A stretch of 64,000 bases of DNA from Bacteroidota bacterium (GTDB lineage Bacteria > Bacteroidota > Bacteroidia > Flavobacteriales > Flavobacteriaceae), in contig JAJRRO010000092.1 in NCBI GenBank assembly GCA_024279425.1, positions 124,001 through 188,000 on the forward strand, read 5' to 3'. Of the stretch, positions 18,230 through 35,582 are shown in pieces. Below the pieces are notes generated by a model. It worked only from the letters and a program-made list of their open reading frames with translations, made no database searches and was not told the DNA's origin. A program made the position numbers and the translations under genes. Numbering within the stretch: position 1 is the stretch's first letter; the number at the start of each line of letters is the position of its first letter.

Positions 18230-18601
18230 TTATAGCAATTTGGAAATCCATAATCCAATGGCAACAGCAAGAATACCAATGCAGATACTGGCAATAAGAT
18301 AGAAAGAGAAATGGAAAATTTCACCCATTTTCAAAAGGGAGTGTTTTTCAAAGGCAAATGTCGAAAAAGTCGTAAAACCTCCACAGAACCCTGTGGTTAA
18401 TAATAAGGTTTGGTTTTGGGTAAGATAGTTACCCTTAAAAGAAAGTCCCAATATGAACCCTATAAGAAGGCAACCTATTATATTGACTAAAAAAGTACCA
18501 AGAAAAAAATGATGAAAATAGGTGTTAAAGGTCTTTGAGATAATAAATCGGAGAATACTTCCAATCCCTCCACCGAGAAAAACAAGTAATATTTGTTTCA
18601 T
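18230..18601 (-). CDS. crcB: Fluoride channel CrcB/FluC
   Basis: 123 residues from M-K-Q-I-L-L-V (two residues after an upstream ATG). Four hydrophobic helices and the family signatures G-G-G-I-G-S-I-L-R near 11-19 and G-F-C-G-G-F-T-T-F-S-T-F near 72-83, the latter holding the pore phenylalanines. It works as a dual-topology dimer exporting fluoride. No fluoride riboswitch is visible upstream. Confidence 0.93.
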   Translation of the reverse strand: MKQILLVFLGGGIGSILRFIISKTFNTYFHHFFLGTFLVNIIGCLLIGFILGLSFKGNYLTQNQTLLLTTGFCGGFTTFSTFAFEKHSLLKMGEIFHFSFYLIASICIGILAVAIGLWISKLL

Positions 18602-18724: not shown

Positions 18725-18904
18725 CTATACTGCTTTTTTGTAGTCACCAGTGGTCAAATCCAAAGGATATATTTTTGAAATTTTAGCATCTGGAAGGTTC
18801 TCGGAGACTTTACTTGAATTCTTGTTCGTGCCATAAAGGCTTACAAGCATCATGGCTGTATTAACGCAGACTAGGACAATGAGTATGGTGAAAAATGTCG
18901 TCAT
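18725..18904 (-). CDS. 59-residue single-pass membrane protein (micro-family member 1)
   Basis: ATG 18904 to TAG 18725. Residues 4-23 form one transmembrane helix (F-F-T-I-L-I-V-L-V-C-V-N-T-A-M-M-L-V-S-L); the tail is hydrophilic and ends T-G-D-Y-K-K-A-V. F4, F5, I7, L11, N15, L20 and S22 recur in the micro-ORFs at 34870 and 35104, which supports real coding. It lies downstream of a 62-residue membrane protein on the same strand. The function is unknown. Confidence 0.6.
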   Translation of the reverse strand: MTTFFTILIVLVCVNTAMMLVSLYGTNKNSSKVSENLPDAKISKIYPLDLTTGDYKKAV

Positions 18905-19018
18905 TTGATTGCTCTTTAGATGAATAACGCAAAATTACGCTGTTTGGTATTATCTACGGGATAAAATGCCCTAATTGTTGTCAAAGAGCCGTTTTTTGTG
19001 GTATACGTAAATTATTCG

Positions 19019-19207
19019 TTAATTATTAAGTAAATACTTAATACAAAATAGAATTAACAAGAAGATTATAAAGATTATTCCTACCCACTTCACGCCCTTA
19101 TAGTTCTTGGCATGCAATTTTTTATCTTTTTTATAGGTAAAAGTAATTATCAAGGTAAAGACAATGATAAAAAGAATGGCAAATACGACTTGTCCGGTAC
19201 TGAACAT
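19019..19207 (-). CDS. Small two-helix membrane protein
   Basis: 62 residues with hydrophobic helices at about 6-25 and 42-60 joined by a basic loop K-K-D-K-K-L-H-A-K-N-Y-K-G-V-K. I believe similar proteins beginning M-F-S-T-G-Q are common in flavobacteria, but no function is known. The 59-residue membrane protein follows 114 bp downstream. Confidence 0.6.
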   Translation of the reverse strand: MFSTGQVVFAILFIIVFTLIITFTYKKDKKLHAKNYKGVKWVGIIFIIFLLILFCIKYLLNN

Positions 19208-34865: not shown

Positions 34866-34893
34866 GACCTCAGTTGATAACTGGGGTCTTTTG
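34866..34893 (+). terminator. Terminator after the cyclophilin-FKBP gene
   Basis: Arms GACCTCAGTT (34866-34875) and AACTGGGGTC (34879-34888) with one G-T pair, followed by TTTTG. It overlaps the last codons of the 47-residue micro-ORF on the other strand. Confidence 0.7.
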
Positions 34894-35013
34894 TTTGCCA
34901 TACCATGTAATTTTCTTACGAATCACTTTTTTTTGTCGTTGGCCCAGACTTGCCAAAAAGAGTAATATGTTTAGTAAGACCAGGCACAATAAAATGGCGA
35001 AAAATGAAGGCAT
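34870..35013 (-). CDS. 47-residue single-pass membrane protein (micro-family member 2)
   Basis: ATG 35013 to TGA 34870. M-P-S-F-F-A-I-L-L-C-L-V-L-L-N-I-L-L-F-L then A-S-L-G, so helix 4-23 is followed by a basic tail (Q-R-Q-K-K-V-I-R-K-K). It shares F4, F5, A6, I7, L11, N15, L20 and S22 with the 29-residue ORF at 35104 and most of these with the 59-residue ORF at 18725. Coding is inferred from this similarity; the expression signal is not clear. Confidence 0.5.
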   Translation of the reverse strand: MPSFFAILLCLVLLNILLFLASLGQRQKKVIRKKITWYGKQKTPVIN

Positions 35014-35103
35014 AATAGCTGAAATCAAGAGTTGATACCGTGTTTACTTACTAAACAGCTCAAAATTCAAAAACCCTACTTTTATTTGATAAACATTTGT
35101 TTG

Positions 35104-35193
35104 TCAAGACCTTTTGCCCGCTCCGACGCTTAGAAGTAATAGCATTATGTTGATAATCAAAAGAGCGGCCATAATGGCAAAAAAGGTGAACAT
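35104..35193 (-). CDS. 29-residue single-pass membrane peptide (micro-family member 3)
   Basis: ATG 35193 to TGA 35104. M-F-T-F-F-A-I-M-A-A-L-L-I-I-N-I-M-L-L-L, then L-S-V-G-A-G-K-R-S. It is almost only a transmembrane helix with a basic end. It lies 90 bp upstream of the 47-residue relative on the same strand, which suggests tandem duplication. Confidence 0.48.
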   Translation of the reverse strand: MFTFFAIMAALLIINIMLLLLSVGAGKRS

Positions 35194-35329
35194 GGTTAAT
35201 TTATTTATGGTGAGACCGGGGGATGGTCATAGTGTTTAATATTTAGATTGATTAAGTGTAAATAGGTTGCGTTGAAAAATCAAGTAAATATAAAAAATTA
35301 TCACCAATGTAGGAAAATACGTAAAATAA

Positions 35330-35362
35330 AAGACCCCGATGATTAAAAATCATCGGGGTCTT
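35330..35362. terminator. Strong bidirectional terminator of csp
   Basis: Perfect 15-bp arms (35330-35344 and 35348-35362) with loop AAA. It lies directly downstream of the minus-strand csp gene. Confidence 0.85.
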
Positions 35363-35387: not shown

Positions 35388-35582
35388 CTAGTCAACTACT
35401 TTCACATTAACGGCGTTCAATCCTTTTTTACCTTGTTGTAGTTCAAATTCCACAACATCACCTTCACGAACTTCATCGATTAAGCCAGAAATGTGTACAA
35501 AATGATCTTCGTTTGAACCATCTTCAGTGATGAAACCATAACCTTTGGAATCGTTGAAGAATTTTACTGTTCCTTTACTCAT
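35388..35582 (-). CDS. Cold-shock protein
   Basis: 64 residues, one CSD domain binding single-stranded RNA/DNA. RNP1 is K-G-Y-G-F-I and RNP2 is D-H-F-V-H-I-S. Acidic E-D-G-S-N-E-D follows RNP1. Its own promoter (-7 TATCTTTG at 35612-35619) and a strong terminator flank it. Which of the cold-shock paralogues it is cannot be told. Confidence 0.93.
   Translation of the reverse strand: MSKGTVKFFNDSKGYGFITEDGSNEDHFVHISGLIDEVREGDVVEFELQQGKKGLNAVNVKVVD

Follow-up and report, generated by a model that had tools for sequence, protein, structure and literature searches.

A microprotein family at two genomic sites

Three short minus-strand ORFs in the window (the whole stretch of 64,000 nucleotides that was analysed) are members of a real family of single-helix microproteins of marine flavobacteria, as had been proposed, although understated, in a preliminary description of the same DNA. 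Judged by gene order, the family genes occupy two separate syntenic sites, which that description did not mention: site A, with a tailed protein, and site B, with one or two tail-less copies. The two site-B genes moreover bear distinct conserved upstream elements that are shaped like ECF-sigma promoters and shared with sigma-factor loci, which is a new observation. The features of the window are the following.

35104..35193, minus strand: B1, tail-less microprotein of 29 aa (ORF; family profile; pN/pS 0.305)
34870..35013, minus strand: B2, second copy, read as 47 aa (ORF; DNA alignment with four relatives; pooled pN/pS 0.352)
34927-35013, minus strand: homologous part of B2, its first 29 codons; the remaining codons come after an A-run that differs by one base
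18725..18904, minus strand: A, tailed microprotein of 59 aa with helix, linker and conserved C-terminus (ORF; alignments; pN/pS 0.391; AlphaFold2 helix 2-32)
35245..35271, minus strand: E1, ECF-promoter-like element of B1, CGCAACC-N16-ATCT (same element before the ECF sigma operon in 30/30 loci, the best 30 of 61)
35054..35079, minus strand: E2, second promoter-like element, of B2, GTAGGGTT-N14-TGTT (same kind before fecR in 11/12 genus genomes)
18928..18937, minus strand: TAnnTTTGCG, putative sigma-A type promoter box of A (25/35 site-A genes)
18955..18981, minus strand: private conserved block ACAACA...CGTA upstream of A (20/35 site-A genes; sharing with other genes not above control)
19019..19207, minus strand: TM62, hydrophobic two-helix protein of 62 aa, upstream of A (36/36 site-A loci)
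18230..18601, minus strand: crcB, downstream of A (NCBIfam; within 130 nt in 29/36 loci)
35388..35582, minus strand: cold-shock protein gene upstream of B1 (Pfam CSD; 22/25 site-B loci, hand count)
35330..35362, minus strand: terminator-like hairpin of the cold-shock gene (sequence)
34866..34888, plus strand: terminator-like hairpin of the convergent FKBP gene, into which the B2 extension reaches (sequence)

Alignment of the three ORFs confirmed that they share M1, F4, F5, I7, L11, N15, L20 and S22. The preliminary description considered this sharing to be beyond chance and proposed a search for homologues, which were indeed found in related Flavobacteriaceae genomes. A profile of the three sequences, run against 149 genomes of the same family, detected relatives beyond the genus, again at these two sites, with a best E value of 5.3e-16, and 86 of the 149 genomes matched at E<=1, chance matches being counted in. 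With a 42-row profile, 207 of 395 genomes gave a match at E<=0.01, a figure that will contain chance matches to hydrophobic stretches, and 53 of the 395 did so at E<=1e-8 (hand count from the table). Among 296 Bacteroidota genomes, Flavobacteriaceae included, profile A3 matched six, all of them Flavobacteriaceae, and profile A2 (L015 and L028 were excluded from alignment A2) matched ten, comprising nine Flavobacteriaceae and one other genome (E 4.7e-4, two internal stops). Convincing matches were restricted to this one family of bacteria. At least 80 stretches of named records were matched by a DNA pattern for the site-A C-terminus, and 77 of the 80 among the matches listed belong to the microprotein family: the start rule converted these 80 into 73 proteins, one being a chance cyanobacterial match, while five of the remaining seven end in the family C-terminus and two are chance. 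Hosts among the matches listed include Maribacter, Arenibacter, Eudoraea, Zeaxanthinibacter, Kriegella, Saonia and Cellulophaga.

As had been stated earlier, no named family corresponds to these proteins: Pfam, NCBIfam, PHROGs and PDB sequences gave nothing above threshold, the best being a sub-cut-off match to ODV-E18 in Pfam (E 0.0032). The lead to solved structures, via PDB sequences, gave nothing for the microproteins, and no description of this family was recognised in the open-access literature searched.

At site A, the microprotein gene follows that of TM62 in 36/36 loci, mostly at a distance of about 118 nt. Downstream, and in the same orientation, crcB lies no more than 130 nt away in 29 of the 36 loci (12 of which show a distance of 17-20 nt); it is absent beside A in four and more than 1 kb away in two. 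At site B, an FKBP/cyclophilin gene adjoins in 25/25 loci and a cold-shock gene also in 22 of them (hand count). Both sites are found on one contig, about 14-18 kb apart, in 16 of the 149 genomes (hand count), which marks the arrangement as old and vertically inherited. The best explanation of these data includes a family of vertically inherited, presumably inner-membrane, single-helix microproteins.

Some further observations concern the neighbourhood of these genes. The near-constant stretch of about 118 nt between TM62 and A (18905-19018 in the window) is highly conserved in different genera, to an extent exceeding that of a plain promoter. TM62 itself (19019-19207) gave weak family matches only. 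Two genomes (L258 and L261) contain a third tandem copy (MITFLI...) at about position 1004, without E1 or E2. Elsewhere in genome G120, a 100-aa protein with the same helix was observed (L089, position 1983).

Coding status and protein anatomy

Substitution patterns indicate that B1, B2 and A are protein-coding and all under purifying selection. Within the genus (10 genomes per gene), pooled pN/pS was 0.305 for B1, 0.352 for B2 and 0.391 for A, against 0.84-2.82 in the other two frames of the same set; the ratios are rough because pS is high (0.61-0.78). The comparison of synonymous and nonsynonymous changes suggested in the preliminary description therefore gave values well below 1 for all three genes. 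In addition, pN was lower than pS in 45/45 genome pairs for each gene (the pairs are not independent), which also backs an origin other than by chance. For the single pair of the window and its sister genome G150, B2 gave a pN/pS of 0.82.

The length of 47 aa for B2 is counted from ATG, with a TTG 15 nt further upstream. DNA alignment with four relatives revealed that an A-run is one A shorter in the sister genome G150, where B2 stops after 29 aa, while the read-through in the window enters the FKBP terminator. On this alignment the 47-aa tail is not a feature of the family and arises from one extra A in the window's genome, either by mutation or by sequencing error; its interpretation as a domain was ruled out by the same one-base difference. 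The earlier view that tails simply differ in length and that the helix is the conserved part was not supported: the 47-aa tail results from a frame change of one base in this genome, and A possesses a second conserved segment at residues 43-59.

Of the 34 A proteins, 26 have a length of 59 aa. Among these 26, mean pairwise identity was 0.49 in the helix, 0.16 in the linker and 0.56 in the C-terminus (residues 43-59), for which the consensus is KIYPLDL..S.YKKAV/I-stop, following a variable linker of nearly fixed length. AlphaFold2 predicted for A one helix (2-32) and a low-confidence tail. The site-B proteins are mostly 26-34 aa in length.

Weighted conservation over 133 sequences (2 of the 34 site-A rows were dropped for numbering) was highest at N15 (100%, an invariance partly built in by the inclusion of N15 in the collecting models and regexes), F4 (97%), L11 (95%) and S22 (94%), followed by L18 (74%) and I7 (71%); F5 (61%) and L20 (39%) are less conserved across the family. 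Along the sequence, conservation recurs with a periodicity of 101 degrees per residue, and none of 5000 permutations was equally strong. It sits, on this pattern, on one helix face composed of F4, L11, N15, L18/19 and S22. Residues 6-22 are uncharged in 42/42 B and 34/34 A proteins; a second set, of 37 A proteins, has two charged residues there. The tails carry a net positive charge in 41/42 B and 32/34 A proteins. One uncharged helix of about 20 residues with a positive flank, as expected for a single-pass protein, is therefore present, and the single-helix family with tandem copies was borne out. The net-positive tails suggest an orientation with the N-terminus outside and the C-terminus in the cytoplasm.

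Promoter-like elements shared with sigma-factor loci

Flavobacteria are characterised by unusual transcription and translation signals, and few flavobacterial ECF sigma factors have, to our knowledge, known outputs. Two kinds of two-block element, E1 (GCAACC-N15/16-RTC) and E2 (GTAGGGTT-N14-TGTT), were first noticed by eye in 43 site-B upstream regions, which form the discovery set. With relaxed spacing, E1 or E2 was present before 42 of these 43 genes and before 50 of 58 later ones, the relaxed patterns having been chosen after misses were seen; with patterns fixed beforehand, only 39 of the 58 were found. The relaxed patterns occurred before 1/51 long ORFs of the window and before 0/35 site-A genes. 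The 58 later genes represent 38 of 40 loci, since L268 and L281 yielded none by regex and were dropped there, though retained in the gene-order survey. Shuffles kept single-base composition for the relaxed-pattern and sigma-locus tests and dinucleotides for the fixed-pattern test.

Among the 36 loci with at least two genes, the order of elements was E1-E2 in 26, E1-E2-none in two and none-E2 in eight, never E2-E1. For this survey, 2 of 113 model matches without a nearby Met were dropped, and its 19 genes without E1 or E2 include site-A genes. As a side observation, CCCC is present within 60 nt before the start in 36/46 genes with E1 versus 13/46 with E2 (35194-35238 in the window and other B1 5' regions). 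An A at -3 was found in 18 of 43 site-B genes, which gives little support for a start-context signal.

In 12 genomes of the genus, the strict E1 pattern gave 32 matches and its reversed form none. According to our own classification, six of these lie at B1, 11 before a gene for a lipoprotein of about 139 aa, another 11 about 1.25 kb from the latter in opposite orientation, and four elsewhere. The operon that begins with this lipoprotein gene in the window's genome also contains an ECF sigma gene and encodes a protein with an outer-membrane-barrel domain (Pfam), which we take for a putative anti-sigma factor; recA is situated between the two copies of E1, of which the outward one is followed by a U32 peptidase gene. 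Lipoprotein, U32 and fecR identities in the relatives are based on similar N-termini, and those in the window's own genome on Pfam. The ECF sigma protein gave 61 matches in 49 of 60 Flavobacteriaceae genomes, and for the best 30 of the 61 loci E1 was present within 1500 nt upstream in 30/30, versus 3% of shuffles. The window's own B1 was missed by the strict pattern; a looser one finds it along with three further sites in the genome, and its reversed form gives one match. The element upstream of B1 is the one that the sigma operon itself bears, at fixed spacing, as would be the case for a member of an ECF regulon, and we strongly infer that the ECF sigma factor encoded next to recA in the window's genome drives transcription of B1. 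E1 is also retained at the ECF sigma operon (L305-L334) in genomes without a microprotein-profile match, e.g. G021; the sigma pathway thus looks wider spread than the microproteins.

The strict E2 pattern gave 20 matches in 11 of the 12 genus genomes and four with the reversed pattern. Eleven of the 20 precede fecR (22-23 nt before its start), four GT2 genes, two DUF4382 genes and three B2; Pfam was also run on one GT2 and one DUF4382 protein. The window's own B2 escaped the strict pattern too, and a looser one detects B2, fecR, a site upstream of a GT2 gene and a further site without explanation. In the window's genome fecR is located after a FecI-type sigma gene and before TonB-receptor pieces. 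B2 has in common with fecR the upstream element expected of a FecI/FecR regulon, in 11/12 genomes of one genus, and this points strongly to its transcription by a FecI/FecR-type sigma factor. Both sigma loci, that of E1 and that of fecR, carry outer-membrane parts. In the window's genome, the gene behind fecR that resembles a TonB receptor is divided between two ORFs (L240:1315-3884, minus strand).

Of the 35 site-A genes, 25 have TAnnTTTGCG upstream and 20 a conserved block. This block (ACAACA...CGTATA) was rejected as a shared ECF promoter, as its 23 matches in the 12 genus genomes were about equalled by reversed-pattern controls; the block search in these genomes gave no link of gene A to a sigma factor.

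Two-block promoter-like elements shared with sigma/anti-sigma genes have precedent in flavobacterial ECF regulons: in F. psychrophilum, the ECF-type promoter class SM6 includes a sigma/anti-sigma pair among its targets (PMC9723704), which lends precedent to reading E1 and E2 as sigma-controlled. The E1 and E2 sequences and microprotein targets were not found in the excerpt of that source used here.

Possible function and rival explanations

Tentatively, and with somewhat less than even confidence, we propose that two presumably envelope-sensing sigma pathways induce the tail-less helices, which would act via their Asn15 face on an inner-membrane partner of the tailed protein. A, probably constitutive, would present its conserved cytoplasmic peptide at this partner. 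The Asn15/Ser22 face would be the surface by which all members pack onto one another or onto a single inner-membrane partner, the shared helix face suggesting a shared partner. Upon envelope stress, tail-less helices would occupy or dilute the site of A, and the activity or stability of the partner would change. A narrower version, a regulin-like switch in which 29-residue decoys from two envelope-sensing sigma factors compete with the constitutive tailed paralogue for one partner, is drawn by analogy and seems rather unlikely; if true, outer-membrane signals would converge on a single inner-membrane protein. If tailed and tail-less copies share a partner, they would provide a clean model, in bacteria, of how microproteins consisting of a helix alone exert control. 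The two sigma pathways would in this way gain concrete, tiny and conserved candidate products, together with two promoter signatures that can be checked in RNA-seq data.

Regulins are single-helix micropeptides with a conserved Asn in the helix; of the muscle regulins, phospholamban has a tail and sarcolipin has none. The likeness to the present proteins (single helix, forms with and without cytoplasmic tail, conserved Asn) is one of analogy, not homology, and the flavobacterial microproteins differ in being bacterial and putatively sigma-controlled. MgrB, a stress-induced small membrane regulator, is comparable as a short single-pass inner-membrane protein made in a stress regulon; the sequences differ, and here paralogues are placed under two putative sigma factors.

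CydX and KdpF are small stabilising subunits of larger membrane complexes, and A, B1 and B2 could likewise be such subunits, added by sigma control when needed, with no competition between tailed and tail-less forms. Their size, single uncharged helix and strong conservation agree with this, as does the co-directional crcB close behind A in 29/36 loci. We nevertheless consider it unlikely, since no gene of a complex adjoins site B and crcB is missing beside A in 4/36 loci and more than 1 kb off in two.

A could also act as a MifM-style nascent-chain arrest peptide, in which the helix is inserted and the C-terminal motif stalls the ribosome, thereby controlling the next gene, often crcB, while the B genes would use the helix otherwise. 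Small membrane proteins with an arrest peptide close to their C-terminus have been described (PMC12992588), and A alone resembles the MifM type in its helix, length-fixed linker, C-terminal motif and downstream gene. The best point in favour is the length of 59 in 26/34 A proteins despite a linker identity of 16%; about 36 residues separate the helix end from the stop, and crcB follows after 17-20 nt in 12/36 loci. A thus combines the helix, length-constrained linker and conserved C-terminal motif expected of such a peptide. However, its motif differs from that of the MifM type described there and is no known arrest motif, the tail-less copies have no such end and B1 and B2 are left unexplained, the distance to crcB is variable with crcB sometimes absent, and mRNA folding at the start of A is unremarkable (z +0.87). 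This makes the explanation quite improbable.

That B1 and B2 are type I toxin-like peptides, stress-induced and silenced by antisense RNA, is very doubtful. Their size, hydrophobic helix and tandem copies are reminiscent of such toxins, but their synteny is old and fixed, they possess sigma-type elements of their own, and their mRNAs are plain (z -0.63 and -0.26) where strong structure would be expected. Rfam gave nothing at gathering score on the window, and nothing came of a lead to the sRNA Rfp18.

Most improbable is that the tail of A serves as a degradation signal bringing an ATP-dependent protease to the membrane: the Y/F-KKA-V/I end of 29/34 A proteins does resemble, as YKKAV/I, the MuA degron recognised by ClpX, given as RRKKAI in PMC8138137, but the likeness spans four residues and the conservation of A extends to KIYPLDL.
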